DNA of 48,374 nt from Kiritimatiellia bacterium (GTDB lineage Bacteria; Verrucomicrobiota; Kiritimatiellia; JAQICX01): contig JAQICX010000181.1 of the NCBI GenBank assembly GCA_027858345.1, positions 1-48,374 of the forward strand, in the 5' to 3' direction. The translations under genes and the position numbers were made by a program. Below the pieces are notes generated by a model, which ran no database searches, was not told where the DNA came from, and saw nothing but the letters and a program-made list of their open reading frames with translations. Of the stretch, positions 692 through 42,842 are shown one piece after another (position 1 is the stretch's first letter; every line of letters starts with the position of its first letter).

Positions 692-3400
692 TCAGCGTAC
701 GATAAGAAGCGTGCCTAACGAGGTGGCCGTCGCCGTCACCGTCCAGCCGGTTGTGTCATCGCCTGTCGTCGTCAGAATATAGCCGGTGGTTTTCGTCAGC
801 GCGCTGGTAAACGACGTCGCCGTCGCAGAGACCGTGATGACATCCCAGCTTGTCCCGGCGGCGACTCGCTCCCCGCTCTCTGGAACGAGTTCCAGCATGC
901 CAGTCAGCGTCAGCGGTGAAGTCACATTGAAAACAAGCGCGTCGTTCTGTCCGCCGGTTGCCTTCAGGTCCAACACGTACTGTGCGTTAGCATCCGCGGT
1001 GAATGCCGTGGCGGACACGGTGTTCGTGCCATAGCCGATTCCGCTGATGCTCTGGGGCTCCAGCACCGCCGTGGCCGCGAGATGCATTGCCTTGGTCGAG
1101 CTCAACGTGCCATGGCCCTTCACATGACGCTCCACGGTTGCAACCGATTCCGAGCCAGGATTGTACCGCAAGGTTGAGTTGTTGCGGAGGATCACCTGAT
1201 TGGCGGCATCGCCCAGCATTTCGTTTCTGGCAGGCAACTCGTTATTACCGATGGTCAACATGCAACTTGCCTGCAAACTTTGTCCGACCCCGACGTATAC
1301 ATCGCCGCGGAACGTGCTGTTCGTGTTCAGGAACGAAGGATAGAAGTTGCAATACTGATCCCCATTCGCATTTAAATAGATTTCGACGGGAGACCCTTCG
1401 GATCCGCCTGTGATTGCAGCATAAAACGGAGCGCCAAGACCGTAGGCCGTGTTTTTCTGGAACACCAGCGTCTGCTTGAGCTCCATCGTCAAACCGTAGT
1501 CGCCACTGGCGTTGCCGAATCTGAGCCCGCCCAGTTGCGACGTAGCCACAATGTAGTTCGTGCCGGTGGCGTCAGCATCAAACGTCAGGGTCGCCGGACC
1601 GTTCGTCGCCGTGACTGCAACCTGCGCTCCGTAGCCCTCGTTCACGGTCATAGCGCTAATGGTTGCATCGTTGGTCAAGTTCAACGTGCGGTTGATGCCG
1701 ACGGTCGGCCAAGATGGGCCTCCAACGTTGACAATGATTTTGTCGCCCTTGAACTGTGGTGTCGTTCTTTCGTAAAACGTATTGATTGTCTAGACGCCTT
1801 CTGCATGCCAATCTGCATTGGTGGCGACCCAGGTGAATGTGTCAGGGGTATTCCAAGGCCGCGTCGTGAAGCTTACCACGTCAGATGACATGCTCTCGCC
1901 CGTGCTGTTCGAAACGGAGTGGCGGACATAGTAAGTCGTGTTGACATTAAGGGTATTCAACTTCAGGCTATAGGCTCCTAGCGTTGTGACCGTAGCTGGA
2001 TACGCCTCAACATGATCCCATGCACCGAAGTCAGACACTTTGTCAACAGTTCCAAAATAGGCACGCAACGTCGCCTCTCCATCCGGTGCAACGCTGATGA
2101 CATCCGCATTGAACGTGGCATTTGTCTCTGCGATCAATGTCGTCGGCAGATTCTGAACGGCGGGATACAGTGTCGTATTCACCTGCCTGGTGGCCGTCAC
2201 CACCCATCCGGCACTCGCATTGCCCGTCGTCTGGAAGCTGTAGAAGGGCGTCTTATAAGACGGGTTGAAGGTAAAAGCCGAGGTCCCGGCCGTCACCGTG
2301 ATAATAGGCCAAGACGTTCCCACGGGAATCTCCTCTAGGGGCTCCATCAGCACTTTGCCCGTATACGTAAATGCGGAGTTGCCGCTGAATGCCACGACAT
2401 CCTTTGTCGTTTCCGTGACATTGATCCGGATCTGTGAATTTGTATGCGTCGTAATGGTGCTCCCTGCTACCGTGATCTTACCAATCGGATTTGAGAACTC
2501 TACGGATGGCTCCAGGGATGATCCATCTCCCAAGACAAGCGTATCCGCATAGGTGATGGTTGTCCAGTCCGTGTTGACACGGAGCCCGCGCACGGTACCC
2601 GTTCCAAGTATACGCCGCTTCAAGCCATCAGAATAACCTTGGCTGACACAAAGGTTCGGCTTTTGATTGCGCAGGATGATCTTGTTGTCGGGATGCCCCA
2701 GCATGCTGTCCGCACCTTTGACTGAACTGTATCCAAGAAACACATACATTTTGCCCTTGGACCCCGTCCCCGTCGCGCCTATATACACATCGCCGCGGAA
2801 CGTGCTATTCGTGTTCATCAGATGAACACGGTATGTGTTCCACTCGTTGTTGTTGACTTCGGTCAGCAGGGAAATGGGATTGCCCTCCGTACCGCCGATG
2901 ATCTTCCCTCTGACGAACATGTAGAGAGAGCCACTATGGTTCCCTGAAAAAATGAGGTTGTCAATGATGTTCAGGGTCAAATCGTCGTCCACCAGACCAT
3001 CCCCGAGGTAGACGTGTTTTCCCGCAGAGTAAATTTTGTTGGTCACCGCAGCAGATGCGGACTCGAATGTCTGCGTGACGACACCCGTCGTCGGCAGACT
3101 CAGCGAACCCCCGCTAACGGATATTCCAGACATCGTGACATTCGTCGTCATCGTAATCGTCGTTGCGTTGGTCGTCACGACCAAATCCCCTGCGATTTCG
3201 GGGAAAACGCGTGATGTGACCGTCGGCGTCCAGACGCCTACCGCATCCCACGATCCGCTGGCACCACCGATCCACGTGAACGTATCCGGTTGAGCATACG
3301 ACGTGATGACTCCCATGGCGAGTGCGAGCGTGAAGACGATGCGTTTGCCCACCGAGGCAAGATGCACAATGCGACTTGTTTTTGCAATGTTGGTTTTCAT
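692..3400 (-). pseudogene. Secreted autotransporter/beta-helix-type repeat protein, interrupted by in-frame TAG at 1790-1792
   Basis: ORFs 1790..3400 (signal peptide MKTNIAKTSRIVHLASVGKRIVFTLALAMGVITSYAQ) and 692..1684 lie in the same frame, and the stretch between them has no stop other than TAG. Repeated units DTFTWIGGASGSWDAVGVW / DTFTWVATNADWHAEGV*; 'NSTFRGDVYIG' occurs in both parts. Confidence 0.75.
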
Positions 3401-9723: not shown

Positions 9724-11103
9724 ATGGCGAATATATTATCGATTGACATTGGGACTTCGAAGCTTTGTGCGGTTATTTTTGATATGATTGCAGATGAACT
9801 TGTGGCTATAAAATCATGTGCTAATGATAGTAATATTGATTTGACAATGGCGGATTATCATGAACAATGTCCTGAAAAGATTGTGCAATCTATTTTCGGG
9901 CTTATTATGGATTTGTCTGAGGAGTATTCGGCTGAATTGGCATCTGTTGAGGGAGTTTCTGTTTCTGGGCAGATGCATGGTGTTCTTTTGGTAAATGAAA
10001 AATGCGAGCCGGTAACAAATTTTATTACATGGCGGGATAAGCGGGCTTTAGAGTTTGAAGATTTGCTATCCAGTTGTAACACCGCCGATAACTTTATGGC
10101 AACGGGTACTCATCTGCAAAGTGGATATGGCGGGGCAACTTTGGCATGGCTTTTTGCTCATGGAAAAATTTCCAATGGGTGTCGGGCTTTATCGATGGCT
10201 GATTATCTGGTTTTACGTCTTACAGGTAAAGCAGCAACTGAATCAACCCATGCTGCTAGCTGGGGAATTCTGAATATACAAAAAAATGATTGGTGCTATC
10301 CATTAATAGAAAAACTTGGAATTGATACAGAAATATTGCTGCCAGTGCATAGAAGTGCAGAACCGCTTGGCGTGATAACGATTGATATGGCCGTTGAACT
10401 TGGTTTGAATCGCAAGGTTATTGTGTATTCACCGGTTGGTGATAATCAGGCAGGTGTTATAGGCACGGCTGGGTTTGATAAAAACCAGATGATTCTTAAT
10501 CTTGGAACAGGTGGGCAGATTTCGGTTTCTCAGGATAGTTTTGATGTTATAGATGGTTTTGAGATGCGTCCTATGCCGCATGGCGGGTCGATTCTTGTAG
10601 GTGCTAGTTTGTGTGGTGGTTGGTCTTATGCTTATTTATGTGAGTTTGTGAAAGATTTGCTGAAAAAGATAGGGAATGTTGAGCTAACTAACGTTGAAAT
10701 ATTTAACAAGCTTGATAAACTTTCAAGTGAGGCTGATTGCTCTTGTGGTGGACTTGTGGTTGATACTCGTTTTGCAGGAACACGGGGAGAACATGATTTA
10801 CGTGGGGAGATAAAAAATATTGATACTTCTAATTTTAATATTTGCAATCTTGGAAGGGCTTTTCTTGTGGGTATGGTTTCAGAATTGTCAAATCTTGCAA
10901 GCAAAATTGATACATCGGAAATTTCAAGAATTTTCACATGTGGCAATGGAGTTTATAAAAATCCTTTGCTAGTAGAAATTATTGCCAATATTTTTAGAAA
11001 GACGGTGGTGTTATCGAATGTGCGGGAGGAGGCAGCAGTTGGGGCTGCTTTGGCTGTGGCACAGACTATTAAATTGTCAAGAGATATAAAATATGATCAA
11101 TAA
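9724..11103 (+). CDS. FGGY-family carbohydrate kinase (xylulokinase/sedoheptulokinase-like)
   Basis: MANILSIDIGTSKLCAVIFD, SVSGQMHGVLLVN, TWRDKRA, GYGGATLAWL, MADYLVLRLTGK, VGDNQAGVIG, LNLGTGGQ; RBS gagggg upstream. Confidence 0.88.
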   Translation: MANILSIDIGTSKLCAVIFDMIADELVAIKSCANDSNIDLTMADYHEQCPEKIVQSIFGLIMDLSEEYSAELASVEGVSVSGQMHGVLLVNEKCEPVTNFITWRDKRALEFEDLLSSCNTADNFMATGTHLQSGYGGATLAWLFAHGKISNGCRALSMADYLVLRLTGKAATESTHAASWGILNIQKNDWCYPLIEKLGIDTEILLPVHRSAEPLGVITIDMAVELGLNRKVIVYSPVGDNQAGVIGTAGFDKNQMILNLGTGGQISVSQDSFDVIDGFEMRPMPHGGSILVGASLCGGWSYAYLCEFVKDLLKKIGNVELTNVEIFNKLDKLSSEADCSCGGLVVDTRFAGTRGEHDLRGEIKNIDTSNFNICNLGRAFLVGMVSELSNLASKIDTSEISRIFTCGNGVYKNPLLVEIIANIFRKTVVLSNVREEAAVGAALAVAQTIKLSRDIKYDQ

Positions 11104-13195
11104 AACACAATATGTCCGTGATAAGATATTTCGTGAGATTCTTGAAGGTAAATACAAGCCTGGCGGCAAACTACCAACTGAAGTTCAGATGGCGAAGCTT
11201 ACCAATACCAGCCGAATTACGATACGACGTGCATTTGCGGAGCTGGAAAAAAGTGGAATAATTCATCGAATACAAGGTAGGGGTACATTTGTTTCGATAT
11301 CCCTTCATGGCGGTGGCGGCGAAGGTGATCATGTTGCTTTGCTGACGACCCTTAATGATCCTTTTGCACTAGAATTTATTACGCATCTTGAGTCTGAACT
11401 TGCCAAACAGGATTTGCTTTTGACTCTTAAGATAACCGATGAAGATCCAAGAAAGGAAAATGCTGCAGCTATTAAGTTGGTTGCAAAAGGTATTCGCAAC
11501 CTTATAGTCTGGCCTAGTGGAAACTCAGTGTCTTATGATACCTTTTTCAGGCTTAGAGTGCTTGGTGCAAATATTGTTTTTTTTGACAGGAAGTTTCCAG
11601 GTGACTGTGCGGATTATATTGGTCTTGACCATAAAAAGGCTGTTACTGATTTGCTTGAACATGCTTGTTGCAATGGATTAAAAGAATTTATTTTTATTAA
11701 TTACAAAGGGTTAGTGGCGGACAGTAATGCGATGCGGCAGGAAGCGTTTGAGAAGTATTGTGCAGATAAGAAATTGAAGCATAGTGTTGTTTTAATAGAT
11801 TATTCTTCATCGCCGGGTCAACAAATAGAAGCAAATTGGAAAAATTGGATACATGGTTTTGGAAAGCTGGCAGTGATTTGTGTTAATGATACAGTCTCTA
11901 TAGCAGCAAGTGATGTTCTGGGAAATAAAATAAATATTTATGGCATTGATGGATTTAGCAAAGCTATAGAACGCGGGATTGTTTCAGTTGCTCAGCCGTT
12001 ATCGATGATGGCTGTAAAATCTATCCAACTTTTACAGAAGCAGCGTGAATTGGGAAGTAACTGGAAAGCAAGGAATATTTTTGTTAAGGGCAAGATTATT
12101 GAAAAAAAAAGGGAGAATATAATGAATTTTAATCAACCTATTTTGTTTATGCCGAATCGTGTTTGGCGTGCTTATGTTGGCGGACAAGTAATGGATGAAT
12201 TTTTGTATGGTCTAGAGAAACCTGACGGGCATTTTCCGGAGGATTGGCTTGGGTCTGTTACTATTGCAAACAATTATGTCAATCAACAGTCTCCCGAGGA
12301 AGGTTTAACCAGAGTCAGGAATTCAAATGGAAAAGAAGGACCACTATTTAAAGATTTGCTTGAAAAATATCCTCAGCAAATTGTAGGTAACGATTCGGGC
12401 AATCTTGATGTGTTGTGCAAGTATCTTGATTCTGCAATTCGTCTGCCCATTCAGTGTCATCCTGATAAAGAATTTGCACTGAAGTATCTAGACAGTCCTA
12501 ATGGAAAAACAGAATCGTGGTTTGTACTTGCGACTAGACAAATTAATGGTGAAGATCCTTATTTGTTGCTTGGATTTAAAGAAAATGTAGATGCAGATGA
12601 TTTTAAAAAGGCGGTACTTGCTCAGGATATTCTTACGATGGAGAATTCGCTTCACAAGATTAAGGTTAAGCCGGGTGATATGTATTTTATTCCAGGCAGA
12701 TTGCCACATGCGATAGGTCCTGGGGTATTTTTGCTGGAAGTTCAGGAACCTACCGACTGGGTGGTTCAGCCGGAGCTGTATATTGGTGATACTAAACTTT
12801 CTCATCAAGAGATGTGGGGAGAGCTTAGTATTGAAGATGGCTTGAAGTGTTTTGATTATGAATCTAAAGGTACATTGGAGCAAATTCTTAGGCGTTGTCG
12901 ATTACTACCGGCAACCGCAGTTCAGAACGAGAATTACATATTCAGCGAGATCATTGGCCCGGCAATTACGGATTGTTTTGCGGTGCATAAGATGGAAATA
13001 AATAAAAGTTGCGGAATAAAATTTAACAACTGGGCAATTTCTGTTGTTACCGAAGGAGTTGCCAGAATAAATAATATTGAAGTAAAACGAGGCGATTATT
13101 TCTTTGTTCCGTATGCGGCGGAGGAGGTGAAGTTTGATGTTGAACAAAAAGTATCTATTTATGTGATTGGGAATCAATCATTGAGTATCAGATGA
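11093..13195 (+). CDS. Fused ORF: GntR-HTH/periplasmic-binding-like (AraR-type) regulator + class I mannose-6-phosphate isomerase
   Basis: N-term wHTH 'YVRDKIFREILEGKYKPGGKLPTEVQMAKLTNTSRITIRRAFAELEKSGIIHRIQGRGTFV' plus LacI-like sensor; from Met344 'MNFNQPILFMPNRVWRAYVGG...LPIQCHPDKEFALKYL...GDMYFIPGRLPHAIGPGVFLLEVQEPTDWVVQPE' is PMI-like. Confidence 0.85.
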   Translation: MINKTQYVRDKIFREILEGKYKPGGKLPTEVQMAKLTNTSRITIRRAFAELEKSGIIHRIQGRGTFVSISLHGGGGEGDHVALLTTLNDPFALEFITHLESELAKQDLLLTLKITDEDPRKENAAAIKLVAKGIRNLIVWPSGNSVSYDTFFRLRVLGANIVFFDRKFPGDCADYIGLDHKKAVTDLLEHACCNGLKEFIFINYKGLVADSNAMRQEAFEKYCADKKLKHSVVLIDYSSSPGQQIEANWKNWIHGFGKLAVICVNDTVSIAASDVLGNKINIYGIDGFSKAIERGIVSVAQPLSMMAVKSIQLLQKQRELGSNWKARNIFVKGKIIEKKRENIMNFNQPILFMPNRVWRAYVGGQVMDEFLYGLEKPDGHFPEDWLGSVTIANNYVNQQSPEEGLTRVRNSNGKEGPLFKDLLEKYPQQIVGNDSGNLDVLCKYLDSAIRLPIQCHPDKEFALKYLDSPNGKTESWFVLATRQINGEDPYLLLGFKENVDADDFKKAVLAQDILTMENSLHKIKVKPGDMYFIPGRLPHAIGPGVFLLEVQEPTDWVVQPELYIGDTKLSHQEMWGELSIEDGLKCFDYESKGTLEQILRRCRLLPATAVQNENYIFSEIIGPAITDCFAVHKMEINKSCGIKFNNWAISVVTEGVARINNIEVKRGDYFFVPYAAEEVKFDVEQKVSIYVIGNQSLSIR
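12122..13195 (+). CDS. manA: Mannose-6-phosphate isomerase, class I (probable independent start inside the fused ORF)
   Basis: ATG at 12122 preceded by gggag (12111-12115) with ~6 nt spacing; PMI domain begins exactly here; QCHPDKEFA metal-site motif and C-terminal cupin. Confidence 0.7.
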   Translation: MNFNQPILFMPNRVWRAYVGGQVMDEFLYGLEKPDGHFPEDWLGSVTIANNYVNQQSPEEGLTRVRNSNGKEGPLFKDLLEKYPQQIVGNDSGNLDVLCKYLDSAIRLPIQCHPDKEFALKYLDSPNGKTESWFVLATRQINGEDPYLLLGFKENVDADDFKKAVLAQDILTMENSLHKIKVKPGDMYFIPGRLPHAIGPGVFLLEVQEPTDWVVQPELYIGDTKLSHQEMWGELSIEDGLKCFDYESKGTLEQILRRCRLLPATAVQNENYIFSEIIGPAITDCFAVHKMEINKSCGIKFNNWAISVVTEGVARINNIEVKRGDYFFVPYAAEEVKFDVEQKVSIYVIGNQSLSIR

Positions 13196-13338: not shown

Positions 13339-14232
13339 ATGAGAATATTTTCAACAGGTTTTAGTGAGGGGCTTGACGGGCCTGGGCGGAGATGGATTGT
13401 TTACCTTAAGGGGTGTAACTTTCGTTGTCTTTGGTGTGCTAGTCCTGAAAGTATTTCAGGTAGCAAGGAAATTCTTTTTTATCCTGATCGTAGTAGATAT
13501 AGCGATAAGTCTTGTACGCATGGAGCTGTATCTTTAGATAGGAATAGTTTTCACCTGAATCGTTCAGAATGTGAATTTTGCAAGGATCATAATTGTGTAA
13601 CAGTTTTTCATGATCCTTCTTTTGAAATAGTAGGTGAGGACATAACATCTGATCATTTAGTTGGCAAAGCAGAAAAATACCGGTCTTTATTTGGCAGGGA
13701 TGGCGGCGTCACTTTCGGTGGAGGAGAATCGACGTTGCAGGATGTGGAGTTGTTTGAAGCAATAGCAGAATTAAGGGCAAGGCAGATAAATGTGGCAGTG
13801 GAAACAAATGGTTCAACTGCTGCTGCTCAAAAACTTGTGGGTAAGGTGGATCTACTTATATGTGATTTTAAATGTTTTTCTCGCGATTTGCATCTGCAAT
13901 GGACTGGGGCTGAAAATGATCAAGTTCTTAAAACAATTTTGTATGCTTGTAAACAAAAACAGAAGCTTTTGGTGCGAATACCGCTGATCTGCGGTTTTAA
14001 TGATTTTAAAAGCGAATGGTCGCTTATGAGAGATTTTCTTTGTGACTGCAAAGAGCTGGCAGGAGAATTAAATGTAGAGATACTTAGGATGCATCATTTT
14101 GGCAAGCCTAAGTATAAAGCGTTAGGGATTGAATATCCGATGCTTAATGTGGCTTGTCCAACTCAGGTAGATGTACGTGAATTGGCAAATTTATTAAAAA
14201 ATAGTGGAATAAATGTGCGGGTATGCACTTAG
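13339..14232 (+). CDS. Glycyl-radical enzyme activating enzyme (radical SAM)
   Basis: LKGCNFRCLWCASPE (CxxxCxxC), VTFGGGESTLQ, additional Cys cluster CTHG...CEFCKDHNC; adjacent to the GRE. Confidence 0.9.
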   Translation: MRIFSTGFSEGLDGPGRRWIVYLKGCNFRCLWCASPESISGSKEILFYPDRSRYSDKSCTHGAVSLDRNSFHLNRSECEFCKDHNCVTVFHDPSFEIVGEDITSDHLVGKAEKYRSLFGRDGGVTFGGGESTLQDVELFEAIAELRARQINVAVETNGSTAAAQKLVGKVDLLICDFKCFSRDLHLQWTGAENDQVLKTILYACKQKQKLLVRIPLICGFNDFKSEWSLMRDFLCDCKELAGELNVEILRMHHFGKPKYKALGIEYPMLNVACPTQVDVRELANLLKNSGINVRVCT

Positions 14233-14240
14233 AGGTTGTT

Positions 14241-14401
14241 TAGAGCATTTCACTCATGAAACGCAGTAAATCTTTGTCCTGCGGCTTCCGTTGAATCTTT
14301 CAAAAAAATACGCAATAGGCCTGCTATTACTTGATTTTTTTTTAAGTCCAACGTCGTCCTCGAATAAAATCTTTACAGCGTTTCATTTGTTCAATGCTCT
14401 A
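14241..14401. mobile_element. MITE-like element copy 1 (~161 bp, TIR tagagcatt...atgaaacgc)
   Basis: Ends TAGAGCATTTCACTCATGAAACGCAGTAAA ... TTTACAGCGTTTCATTTGTTCAATGCTCTA are inverted repeats; near-identical copy in opposite orientation at 42680-42842; TA at both ends. Confidence 0.85.
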
Positions 14402-14411
14402 GTCTCTTAAT

Positions 14412-16802
14412 TTGGAGTTTATGATGATTGATTCAAAAAATAATGATTTGGTTATGGCGCTGGCAGATGGCGTTGAGAAAGTTCGCTCTTTCAAGCGTTC
14501 TCAGGATACGGTGGTTGAGTGGTTTTTTGTTCAGGAAATACGAATGCAGCAGTATGAAAAAATGATTGCATGTGGACTTAATCCTGATGATGCAGAAGGG
14601 CAGGCAGAGCTTCTTATTCGTACGATTAGTGAAATGCCTTTAAGTATTATCCCCGGCAGTGCAATTGCGGGCAGTCAGGATGCGGGGTTTTCTCCTTCTT
14701 ATGCTCTGATAAATCCTTCATTCAAAGTTGACGAATTTGCCGGCTATTGTGATCCGGTTGCAATTTATGATGATATTAAACCAGATGAAGCACTTGGTCT
14801 CAGCAAAGAGCGTATTGAAAGGGTAAGGCAATATTGGAAAGATACTGAATACGTGCGCAAGCTAAGTAGTATTTATGATTCAACCGGTGATTTGACTGGA
14901 GAGGTTGTTTTTTTTGCTGAACCAGTTACTGGTCATACTATTCCTGATTTCAGAGATTTCATAAAATTTGGAGTATCTGAAATGATAGAACGAGCTTATC
15001 AACTTCAAAGCCCATATGGCAAGATTATGGGCAAAGCGCTTGAGGCTGTGGTTATTCTTGGAAAACGATATCACCAGCTTGCCAAAGAGTTGGCGGAAAA
15101 CACTAAAGATGAAAATGAAAGAATTCGCCTTAAAAAGATTGCTGATATTCTTACGCGCATACCTGCTGAGCCAGCAAGAGATCTTCATGAAGCGATAGAG
15201 ATGTATGTATTATTGTGGCAGGTGATGGTAATCGAGCAAGCTCCCAATCCATATGCATTTTCAGTGGGCAATCTTGATCGCATACTTTCCCCGTATTATA
15301 AACAATCGGATATTTCTTATGAGCATGCAGTAGAACTTGTTCGTAATATGCTCTGTTTTTTTCAAGTAGGCAAACGATGCTGGGCTATAAGTCAGAATGT
15401 TCTTGTTGGCGGTAAAGATGAAAAAGGCAATAATCTGACTGACGAAATGAGTTATATTATTTTGGATGCTTTTTATAAAACAAACGATCCTCAGCCTGCA
15501 TTGTCGGTAAAAGTTTATGCCGAAACCCCCGTTGAGCTTTACGATTCAATCGGAAGATTTTTCTTCACGCCTGGACATTCAACGCCATCATTATTTAATG
15601 ATGACAGTGTTTTTGAGATGCTTCTGCAACAAGGTAAAGCAGTTTCTGATTTGCCTGATTATTCGATAGCTGGTTGTCAGGAACTGTTAGTTATGGGGAA
15701 GTCATCATTGAATACGACCAACTCTTGGCTTAATTTGGCAAAGGTTCTAACTTTAGCATGTAATGATGGCAAGTCGCTTATCAGTTCAAAACAACTTGTA
15801 CCTACATGGCGTGAGTTGGGGTACTGTGATGCAACGAATGCTTATGAGAACATTCATGATGTTTTCTTCAAGATGTTGAAAATTGTTCTTCCGAAAATGC
15901 AGCAAACAGCCAATGCCTGTACGGATTTGTTAGGTACAGAAAAGCCTGTTCCTTTTACCTCGGCTGTGATGGACAGCTTTAATACTGGTTCGGATATGCG
16001 TGATCCTAAAAAACCTGGTACTCGTTATAATGCCAGTGGTTGTCTTGTGCATGGACTTTCGGTTGTGAGTGACTCTCTTTATGCTGTTAAGAATGCTTTG
16101 TCCACAGGAATGTGGTGTGCCGATGATATTCAGAAGGCTCTATGTGAAAATTTTGATGGGAATGAAAATTTAAGAAGCTTTTTGTTAAATCAACCTCGTT
16201 ATGGTAACGGCAATGATGAGGCAGACGATCTGGCTGTTTCGCTTATTAACAGGGTTGCTGATATGATTGGAGAGCTTCGTAACACAGCGGGTAATGAATT
16301 TTTGGCAGATTTTTCTACTCCAAGTACGCATTTGCTTTATGGCTACTGGGTAGGAGCTACACCAGACGGTAGAAAAGCCAGGCAAATGCTTGGGTACGGT
16401 ATAGACCCGCAGTTTGAGTCCATGCACACGTCTTTAGCAGAGAGGATTGTCTCTTACTGGAAAATACCTTATCACAAGATGAGCGGTGGATATTCAAGCC
16501 ATGTGGGGATTGATCCAGCATCAATACGCGGTAAAGAAACTATGGAACAAAAATCTCATTGGATGCGGGATAATATAATCAAGCCACTAATGAGACTTGG
16601 ACAAGGTTATAAAGAATCGCCTTTTTATGTATATTTCAATATTGATTCTGTTGATCATCTAAAAAAAGTATTGGCAGAACCGCAGAAATATGCCCCGACT
16701 GGAGTTTATATTATGCGTATTCACGGCACCTTTGTGAACTTTTTGGATCTTTCCCCAGCCATTCAGCAGGATATAATGAAACGACTGGAAGCTTCATCGT
16801 AA
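14412..16802 (+). CDS. Glycyl radical enzyme (PFL-like), atypical; likely start at ATG 14421
   Basis: Active-site Cys region DYSIAGCQELLVMGKSS; C-terminal radical region YAPTGVYIMRIHGTFVNFLDLSPAIQQDIMKR; paired activase upstream; ggag RBS before 14421. Confidence 0.88.
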   Translation: MEFMMIDSKNNDLVMALADGVEKVRSFKRSQDTVVEWFFVQEIRMQQYEKMIACGLNPDDAEGQAELLIRTISEMPLSIIPGSAIAGSQDAGFSPSYALINPSFKVDEFAGYCDPVAIYDDIKPDEALGLSKERIERVRQYWKDTEYVRKLSSIYDSTGDLTGEVVFFAEPVTGHTIPDFRDFIKFGVSEMIERAYQLQSPYGKIMGKALEAVVILGKRYHQLAKELAENTKDENERIRLKKIADILTRIPAEPARDLHEAIEMYVLLWQVMVIEQAPNPYAFSVGNLDRILSPYYKQSDISYEHAVELVRNMLCFFQVGKRCWAISQNVLVGGKDEKGNNLTDEMSYIILDAFYKTNDPQPALSVKVYAETPVELYDSIGRFFFTPGHSTPSLFNDDSVFEMLLQQGKAVSDLPDYSIAGCQELLVMGKSSLNTTNSWLNLAKVLTLACNDGKSLISSKQLVPTWRELGYCDATNAYENIHDVFFKMLKIVLPKMQQTANACTDLLGTEKPVPFTSAVMDSFNTGSDMRDPKKPGTRYNASGCLVHGLSVVSDSLYAVKNALSTGMWCADDIQKALCENFDGNENLRSFLLNQPRYGNGNDEADDLAVSLINRVADMIGELRNTAGNEFLADFSTPSTHLLYGYWVGATPDGRKARQMLGYGIDPQFESMHTSLAERIVSYWKIPYHKMSGGYSSHVGIDPASIRGKETMEQKSHWMRDNIIKPLMRLGQGYKESPFYVYFNIDSVDHLKKVLAEPQKYAPTGVYIMRIHGTFVNFLDLSPAIQQDIMKRLEASS

Positions 16803-30662: not shown

Positions 30663-32584
30663 TTACTTGACGATGATGAGAGTTCCCTGAACCGGAACAG
30701 TCAGCACAATGCTGCCGCTGCCGTTAATGGTTGCCGTACCTGCCACGGCATTGCCGCTCGCATCGAGGTATTCAAGACTATAACTATCCGGAAGCGTTTC
30801 GCCATTGAGTGTGACATCGTCGAATCGGCCAGTCAGAAAATTGGAAAATGTTACAAGAACGTGTTCTCCACTGGGAACATTAGCCGTCGGAGTGATGATC
30901 TCAAGAGCATCCTGATTCATCGAGCTGTCTAGTTTGACGGCTCCGACGACCGCAAGACAAGAACTTGTGCCGGCTGGACCGAGTGTTGAGCGCAAGGTAG
31001 CGTAGTTGATGAAGGTGACATTGTTGGTTACCTCAGATGTTCCAACCGAGAGTGTTCCGCACAGCCATTCACCGGTGTTGCGGTCAACAGTGCCCGGTGC
31101 GAGTATAGCGGGGTCGCCGCTTGCACCTTCCAGTGTGACGTGTCCGCTGATGTAGGCCGTATCCAAGCTGCAAACGGCTCCTGTTCCGCCAAGTGTCCCA
31201 CCAGCGACGACATTCACAGAGTTGCTCCCCGAGACTGGTAGACTGCCGCCATCCATCAACAGCGTTCCCCCGCTGACGATGATGGGCTTTCTCTCACGGC
31301 GCATATCGCTTCCCGTCGGATAGCTGAGCGCCAAGACACCAGGTCCTGCCTTTGTGAAACCAAAAGTGCCGCGAATCCGACCTGAAATTTCCAAATCAAC
31401 GGGAGCCGCACCGTCTTCAGTGTAAAAGCTGTAACGCTCACCACCTAATTTTACGTCTGTAGAAATCGTGGCCGTCTCGTCTGAAGCCCGAGTGGTAATT
31501 CCCGCATACCCGTTAGTGGTTGGGGAGATAAGGGAAACCGTTCCGTTTTTAATGATACCCCCCGTCATGGTGATGGATCGATCCCACGGTGTCGTCCCAA
31601 TGTTTATCAAGTAAAGTTCGTTCCCTCCGAAGTCAATTGTTCCACCATTGACGATATACGTCTCGGGATAAAACGTGGCTTTGGCAGCCGGCGAACTGAT
31701 TTGGTACAAGCCGTTAGTGTTGACGGTGACGATAGCGTACGTCTGTACTCCCAATACATTTTGAGATTCCACAGCGACATCAAGCATGGCCGGATGGATT
31801 CCATCGCCAACAACGACTTCGTAGCTCTTGAGCTGCGTGCCATATCCTTCGAGGCGAATAGTGCCTTCTGCGATGACAGTCTTACCCGTGTACGAATTGT
31901 TCTCGTAAAGAGTACATCTCAACATGCCATCGCCCGTTTTTGTGAGGGAGTATCCATTATCGTCGTTATTGATTGAAGTGCCAACGACAAGTTCTTTCGG
32001 TGCTTCGATCGACCAGATACCATCACCGGCAAGCTGAAGATACACGGTCTGATTCGTGGCAGGAATGTCGTTGATGTTGGACATATCAATATCCTTCACT
32101 ACGATAGCAAAGTTGCCGCCCAGCTTCAAGGAGCCAGGTTGAGCGTATGTCAGTTTATCGATGGTTTCACTATTCACCAGTGTAATCGAGGTACGCGTAA
32201 GTGCATCAGGAAACACCGCCTCATCACCGGGACCCGGGTTGACGTCGCCATCCCAAGAGGTTTCGAAACCAGTACCCCATTGCCATCCAGCCCCATGGAA
32301 CCGCCTGTTCCGCCGCCATCCCATGTTACGACCGCAGCACTGCACAAGCCTACCATAGAAAAAAATACGATAACCGCAGCGATTTGCTGGTGTCGTATTT
32401 TTTTTATTGTTGTGTTGTATTGATACATGTTATCAAAACCTATCGATATAAGCTCCAACATTTTCTTTATAAATTTAGACATATAACTCTTTCCTTTTGT
32501 TACGTAATTACTTTTATTAGTTAAAAGCTTGCTATCAAAACCAATAGATAGAAGCCCCAACGTTCTCTTTATGAATTTAGACAT
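30663..32584 (-). pseudogene. Secreted autotransporter/beta-helix-type protein, frameshifted near the N-terminus
   Basis: 136-aa ORF supplies the signal peptide and 'AAVVTWDGGGTGGSMG'; 560-aa ORF in another frame supplies 'AGWQWGTGFETSWDGDVNPGPGDEAVFPDAL...'. One extra G in the G4 run at 32291-32294 joins them. Confidence 0.75.
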
Positions 32585-32929: not shown

Positions 32930-34054
32930 TCAATTTATTGCTGCAGTTGATTCACGTTCAATAAGTGTTGGACTTATTCTCATTCTGCATTGAGGTCCCT
33001 CTTTGGGGTTTGTCCCGCGTTTCAAACTCATTATCAATTCTCTGACCGATACTTTGCCGATTTCTTCTTTACAAACTCTTACGGAAGTAAGAGCCGGGGT
33101 AACTAATTGAGCAGAATCAATGTCATCAAAACCGACAATACTCAGATCCTCAGGCACTTTTAAGCCGGCATTGATTGCTCCCCTCAAAATTCCTAAAGCG
33201 GCAAAGTCATTGGTACACAGAAATGCAGTGGGTCGATCAGGATTTTGCAGCATATCTTCCGCCCACTTCCCGACATCCAGAATATGGTTCGGCCCTTTAT
33301 ATACCCACTTGTCATGAATGGGCAGTTTCATCTCTGCCATCTTATAAGCGAAAGCATTGTACCTTTCGCGGTATTCAGGAATATCAGAAGCCCTGGCAAA
33401 TCCGATATCACGATGCCCCAATGAGTAAAGGTGTTCAAAAGCCTGGATTATTCCCTCAATGTTATCAGTGGTGACTTCAACAGGGCCTTCGTTGGCAATA
33501 ATATCAACTAGAACAACCGGAATCGGGCAATTTTGCAGGAATTTTGAGATGCTTTCAGGATGTTCTCCAGCTAGCAGCAATCCATCTGCTCCGTCTTCTA
33601 TTAAGGTCTGGATAAGTGCCGGATCTCCCAATTTTGTTTTGTCAATTGAGTGAGTAATTGTCTTGTATCCACGCTTCCTTGCTTCTTCTATTACTCCTTC
33701 ACTTATTGAACGATAAAAAGATGATTCATAACGTTGATCTTCGGAAAAAAAAAAATCAGTCGCGACTTTTCCGTTTTTGTTGACTTCGATGCCATCAGAG
33801 CCCATTTGAATCCGTTCAGGTTCCATGTCGAAACAGAAAATCAGTTCTAAAGTTCCAGAACCATTGCCATTGGCGGAAACAGATTTACTGTTCTTGACCC
33901 CTGATCCTCGCGGAACATAGTTCAGTTCTTTAACCGCCGCAAGTACTGAATCTTTGGTGTTTTTACTGAATGGGTCGATATCATTCAAAACACGCGAAAC
34001 CGTTGCGGTCGACACTCCTGCTTTTTTAGCAACACTATTTATACTTGCTTTCAT
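32930..34054 (-). CDS. LacI-family transcriptional regulator
   Basis: MKASINSVAKKAGVSTATVSRVLND HTH; periplasmic-binding sensor ...FLCTNDFAALGILRGAINAGLKVPEDLSIVGFDDIDSAQLVTPALTSVR. Confidence 0.95.
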   Translation of the reverse strand: MKASINSVAKKAGVSTATVSRVLNDIDPFSKNTKDSVLAAVKELNYVPRGSGVKNSKSVSANGNGSGTLELIFCFDMEPERIQMGSDGIEVNKNGKVATDFFFSEDQRYESSFYRSISEGVIEEARKRGYKTITHSIDKTKLGDPALIQTLIEDGADGLLLAGEHPESISKFLQNCPIPVVLVDIIANEGPVEVTTDNIEGIIQAFEHLYSLGHRDIGFARASDIPEYRERYNAFAYKMAEMKLPIHDKWVYKGPNHILDVGKWAEDMLQNPDRPTAFLCTNDFAALGILRGAINAGLKVPEDLSIVGFDDIDSAQLVTPALTSVRVCKEEIGKVSVRELIMSLKRGTNPKEGPQCRMRISPTLIERESTAAIN

Positions 34055-42679: not shown

Positions 42680-42842
42680 TAGAGCATTGAACAAATGAAA
42701 CGCTGTAAAGATTTTATTCGAGGACGACATTGGGCTTTTAAAAAAAAATCAAGTAACAGCAAGCCTATTGCGTATTTTTTTGAAAGATTCAACGGAAGCG
42801 GCAGGACAAAGATTTACTGCGTTTCATGAGCGAAATGCTCTA
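42680..42842. mobile_element. MITE-like element copy 2 (~163 bp, inverted orientation)
   Basis: Reverse complement aligns with 14241-14401 almost end to end; ends TAGAGCATT...AATGCTCTA. Confidence 0.85.

Follow-up and report, generated by a model that had tools for sequence, protein, structure and literature searches.

A nine-adenine tract merges a regulator gene and an isomerase gene in one bacterial assembly, probably as an incidental state of a coupled gene pair

Frame transitions include a translational-coupling class (Antonov et al. 2013; PMC3711429). In Thermus thermophilus, transcriptional slippage on a run of nine A's in dnaX gives the tau and gamma products (PMC1088944). Slippage on poly-A or poly-T runs is also described for Shigella mxiE and other genes (PMC1088944, PMC6260861). 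Here we analyse a run of nine A's that stands in frame between a transcription regulator and a homologue of phosphomannose isomerase (PMI).

The window, by which we mean the whole stretch of 48,374 nucleotides that was analysed, contains an open reading frame of 700 amino acids (11093-13195) in which an A9 tract joins a GntR/AraR-like regulator to PMI. An earlier note on this DNA had described the nine A's, the GGGAG behind them, the in-frame ATG and the 700-residue frame. Direct reading of the letters of the window confirmed each of these, with exactly nine A's in GAAAAAAAAAGGGAGAATATAATG. When the length of the run alone was altered in silico, A9 gave the 700-aa fusion. With A8, the regulator had 342 aa and ended in IIEKKGRI, its TAA overlapping the ATG of PMI (TAATG), whereas with A10 it had 346 aa, ended in KKKGEYNEF and overlapped PMI by 11 nt. 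Both outcomes, the TAA on the PMI start with eight A's and the early stop with ten, had been predicted in the note. A11 gave a regulator of 343 aa, and with A6 or A12 the regulator was again fused to PMI. At the junction, an in-frame A run of at least nine has stops close by in both other frames. A stop codon adjoining or inside the downstream start is seen in the A8 and A10 forms of the window and is absent from the assembled A9. For the fused frame, the tryptic peptide spanning the join, cut after lysines and arginine, is predicted to be ENIMNFNQPILFMPNR, and the N-terminal peptide of a separate PMI is predicted to be MNFNQPILFMPNR. An exact search of viral contigs with the junction sequence gave no match.

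Judged by their sequences, the regulator and the PMI part both look complete. Residues 6-67 of the regulator are a GntR HTH domain (PF00392, 1.7e-15), and residues 83-317 show weak similarity to sensor models of the RbsR/LacI type, confined to the RbsR and the fructose/sucrose repressor models. Its solved relatives include AraR (DNA-binding domain 4egy), YvoA and DasR. The PMI part has the motifs Q.HPD, GKTE and PHA in the form of QCHPD, GKTES and PHAIG, and HPD, GKTE and the HA histidine align with 1qwr, a mannose-6-phosphate isomerase and the only solved relative of this part at E below 0.001. In class I mannose-6-phosphate isomerases, these conserved motifs supply the metal ligands. Residues 472-685 of the fused frame match the manA model TIGR00218 with 60.6 bits, under the equivalog cutoff of 116.2. 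Since the score is below the cutoff and 1qwr is the only solved relative, PMI-superfamily isomerase is a safer name than mannose-6-phosphate isomerase.

PMI keeps its own ribosome-binding site and ATG. This site is GGAG with a spacing of 6 nt, a 4-base match to the anti-Shine-Dalgarno (SD) complement; matches of this kind precede 46% of the called starts versus 14% of the in-frame ATGs inside genes. Among the PMI homologues, the nearest (L007, 69% identical) is a stand-alone protein of 357 aa with the same start as the PMI of the window. The earlier note was right that PMI has a start and an SD site of its own.

The pair is part of a same-strand cluster with the order FGGY kinase, regulator, PMI, activase and glycyl radical enzyme (GRE), and the coordinates are collected in Table 1. 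Across the phylum, a cluster of GRE, activase, GntR/AraR-like regulator and FGGY kinase, often with a PMI homologue, is conserved (L010, L011, L013, L030, L143-L159, L164).

Table 1. Features at and around the regulator-PMI junction in the window.
Feature	Position	Strand	Remark
FGGY-family sugar kinase	9724..11103	+	upstream; 11-nt overlap with regulator start
GntR/AraR-like transcription regulator, complete	11093..12101	+	homologues end at or beside the A tract
A9 tract	12102..12110	+	regulator frame stops at A7, A8, A10, A11; enters PMI at A6, A9, A12
GGGAG, Shine-Dalgarno-like	12111..12115	+	6 nt 5' of PMI ATG; 4-base match to anti-SD complement
Class-I-type PMI homologue, 357 aa	12122..13195	+	complete from own ATG
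GRE activase	13339..14232	+	TIGR02494 above cutoff
MITE-like dispersed element, ~161 bp	14241-14401	+	many contigs end in the element
GRE, PFL-like	14412..16802	+	PF02901
MITE-like dispersed element, second copy	42680-42842	-	

Five other genomes of the phylum (L143, L144, L148, L149 and L151) have the order GRE-GntR-PMI with all three genes on one strand. They are 5 of 23 new phylum loci; in 13 of the 23 the regulator sits between GRE and activase. Three loci (L010, L011, L013) have a GRE-GntR-activase-kinase block with a divergent PMI, and L030 has GRE-GntR-activase-kinase. In all five GRE-GntR-PMI loci, which are distant from the window (33-50% identity) and differ from it in junction sequence, the regulator stop falls at the beginning of PMI or within it, in another frame, and the offset (2) is the same in each. 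The overlap is 8 nt in L143 and L144, where PMI starts with ATG, and 17 nt in L148 and L151, provided that the upstream GTG is the PMI start. An A tract at the junction was absent from all five, the longest A run being 3-6 nt. Since the regulator stop is in another frame and the A tract is lacking, two proteins are encoded in all five loci. Neither the run nor an arrangement with two products of the dnaX kind was conserved in them. These are two ordinary adjacent genes, the outcome that the earlier note had named as speaking against its reading.

No regulator-PMI fusion was present among the approximately 28 regulator and 30 PMI homologues examined. In the phylum survey, 25 regulator matches came from other genomes, and all of them lay in open frames of 323-531 aa. 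The 28 examined regulators end 0-21 residues, mostly 3-7, past query residue 333; the regulator of the window extends 9 residues past this point if the run is A8 and 367 in the A9 fusion. For the PMI homologues the frames measure 323-610 aa, with no regulator match in the longer of them. An A10 window would restore the stop-to-start frame relation of all five GRE-GntR-PMI relatives, and the A8 (TAATG) and A10 junctions are both ordinary gene overlaps. Since the genes overlap in the relatives, the pair presumably works as two genes and the junction of the window would, by this evidence, be a local remodelling with an A tract plus a new SD-like site. The statement of the earlier note that the tract length decides between a fusion and two proteins holds for the annotation, but the significance it implied, that of a transcription factor fused to an enzyme or of a switch by length, is unsupported, as the genes in the five loci overlap out of frame and have no A tract. 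Slippage, recent fusion and assembly error, which it listed as options, were the right ones to weigh.

We consider it probable that the window holds a coupled gene pair whose labile A tract happens to stand, in reality or through a consensus error, at a length that joins the frames, and the apparent fusion is most likely incidental. The regulator and PMI would be two complete, separately working genes of a sugar-utilisation operon. They would meet at an unstable poly-A tract that both encodes the final residues of the regulator and leads into the ribosome-binding site of PMI. From the relatives we infer that the ancestral and functional state was a stop-start overlap with translational coupling. 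The A9 of the assembly would be one of the states of this labile run. It would have come about by a recent change of a single base in the sampled population or by an error of the consensus, and the loss of the regulator stop and the merging of the frames that it causes would serve no purpose. With a real A9, internal initiation at the ribosome-binding site and ATG of PMI would still yield PMI alone, and RNA slippage would free some regulator. With both the own start of PMI and the slippage-freed regulator, the change to A9 may be nearly neutral.

The behaviour of A/T runs was examined in the own genome, with run-frame tests in a sample of about 1.11 Mb taken by region. The 4.03-Mb genome has 274 A9/T9 runs, about 3 per window, and part of these lie in a dispersed repeat. 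In coding frame A9 is rare, with 9 in 674 sampled genes, and the coding A9s read in frame through their genes. At coding runs of at least nine, the frame was the same on both sides in 6 testable cases and shifted in none of the six (1.11 Mb). The rate of frame changes was raised at 8-nt runs (4 of 58), but it depends on these four cases, of which at least one resembles a normal transposase orfA/orfB junction. A general miscalling of homopolymers was rejected, as the testable coding runs of at least nine stay in frame; a T11 within a LacI-type gene of the window is in frame too. In the own genome, A8 runs also mark the borders between ORFs that overlap in different frames, at L073:8482 and L106:6393, the former resembling an orfA/orfB border of an IS630-type transposase.

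A dispersed 161-bp element with 42 near-identical copies has a T9(A2) stretch of other total length in 12 of the 42; its A7 run changed length in none of them, and in the adjoining 55 bp 0.3% of the sites differ from the consensus. The T9 length differences may have arisen by mutation or in assembly. A/T runs of about nine are an unstable class in this genome as assembled. Near-misses are common in it, since a single A gained or lost would fuse the neighbours in 2 of 195 sampled close gene pairs. The element is MITE-like, with imperfect terminal inverted repeats TAGAGCATT..CATGAAACGC / GCGTTTCAT..AATGCTCTA. Its right end has 58 matches in the genome, and one copy lies within the operon, between activase and GRE.

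A plain consensus error, in which the true run is A8 (TAATG) or A10 (an 11-nt overlap, as between kinase and regulator) and the assembler wrote A9, is possible but, taken alone, rather unlikely. It is one of the two sub-cases of the incidental junction favoured above, so the confidences overlap and do not sum to one. An error of one base at the tract necessarily creates the fusion. Both alternatives would be ordinary overlaps, since among 478 sampled pairs same-strand neighbours overlap by 1 nt in 9 cases and by 4 nt in 20, and A10 has in its favour the frame relation of all five relatives. Coding sequence is broken elsewhere in the window too. An in-frame TAG at 1790-1792 (minus strand), apparently a Trp codon turned stop, splits a long repeat-type protein into ORFs 3400-1790 and 1684-692, which share a frame. 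Near 32290 (minus strand), the ORFs 32584-32174 and 32345-30663 show an apparent frame change in what is seemingly one cell-surface-type protein. However, neither break is at an A/T run, and the other coding runs of at least nine are in frame. The contigs end at shared repeat ends, which suggests an assembly from short reads. In short-read assemblies, errors at A9 are uncommon. Given the in-frame long runs and the probable short-read assembly, the true state of the population may well be A9.

The number of coding A runs to be expected was obtained by shuffling synonymous codons in the 674 sampled genes. This test was used since many intergenic T9s sit in one dispersed repeat, and a comparison of A8 and A9 between coding and intergenic DNA was dropped. 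Sense runs of at least nine A's occurred 9 times in coding DNA versus 50 +/- 6 expected, whereas coding A8 runs were near expectation with 78 observed versus 91 +/- 7. Avoidance of runs has been read as a sign that such lengths slip (Baranov et al. 2005; PMC1088944). Since runs of at least nine A's are avoided in coding DNA, RNA slippage on the A9 of the window is plausible, and the analysis suggests, indirectly, that A9 runs slip in this organism. If the A9 is real, it is plausible to expect some free regulator without any selected switch. Elsewhere in the window, an intact LacI-type regulator gene (34054-32930, minus strand) has a T11 (33745-33755) in its sense strand. This run exceeds the length at which the genome avoids such runs and is a candidate slippage site.

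That such slippage is useful, as in dnaX, with a real and kept A9 whose A9 mRNAs give the fusion and whose A8, A10 and A11 mRNAs give the free regulator, is improbable, and equally so is the idea that the operon thereby fixes the proportion of fused to free regulator, with PMI made in addition from its own start and the regulator tied to the enzyme. The architecture matches that of dnaX (in-frame A9, near stops in both other frames; PMC1088944), and the avoidance of A runs from nine upwards, with A8 near expectation, also speaks for it. Against this, none of the five relatives with this gene order has the tract or the fusion, and a fused form that selection could keep was seen in no relative. 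In reporters, the E. coli RNA polymerase slipped less on A runs than on T runs (PMC6260861). An A9 alone is no evidence of use either, given the nine coding A9s in other sampled genes.

A stable, functional regulator-isomerase fusion confined to this lineage's form of the gene, in which PMI perhaps acts as a sensor or is brought to its operon, has a slightly smaller chance still. The single uninterrupted frame of 700 codons has good coding statistics before and after the tract, and the regulator and PMI both look intact. However, there is almost no linker, with about 5 residues from the usual end of the regulator to Met1 of PMI, and the ribosome-binding site and ATG of PMI are retained. A fused homologue was found in none of the regulator and PMI relatives examined, and the join hangs on one base of a labile run. 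Phase variation, in which changes of tract length in the DNA toggle between a fused and a separate regulator in the population with a selective benefit, is very improbable, for although 9-nt A/T runs are labile in the genome as assembled and the tract sits where its length decides the product, the repeat is not conserved in the relatives and catabolic operons such as this one are not typical phase-variable functions.

If real and maintained, the junction would encode an unusual transcription factor-enzyme protein under the control of an A tract. The case shows that the one-base state of a homopolymer in a single assembly can yield a striking, probably meaningless multidomain gene, and that relatives in gene order can expose it.

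Compared with the known systems, the junction is like dnaX of Thermus thermophilus in that the in-frame A9 gives the long product, and A8, A10 and A11 give the short one through nearby stops. In dnaX, however, the tract is an established one, as are its two products, whereas the tract of the window is unique to one assembly and absent from the relatives, and its downstream domain, PMI, has its own start site. With Shigella mxiE and other poly-A/T slippage genes it shares a 9-nt A/T run that borders two reading frames. In those genes slippage is required for joining two parts of one protein, whereas in the window it would part two whole proteins, which are made separately in the relatives. It differs from coupled overlapping genes in that the assembled window has no stop, owing to the tract length, so that the frames are merged. 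Otherwise the locus is like coupled overlapping operon genes, with two complete proteins per mRNA and a downstream ribosome-binding site and start beside the upstream stop that the A8 or A10 form would have, and in the relatives the regulator and PMI genes overlap out of frame.
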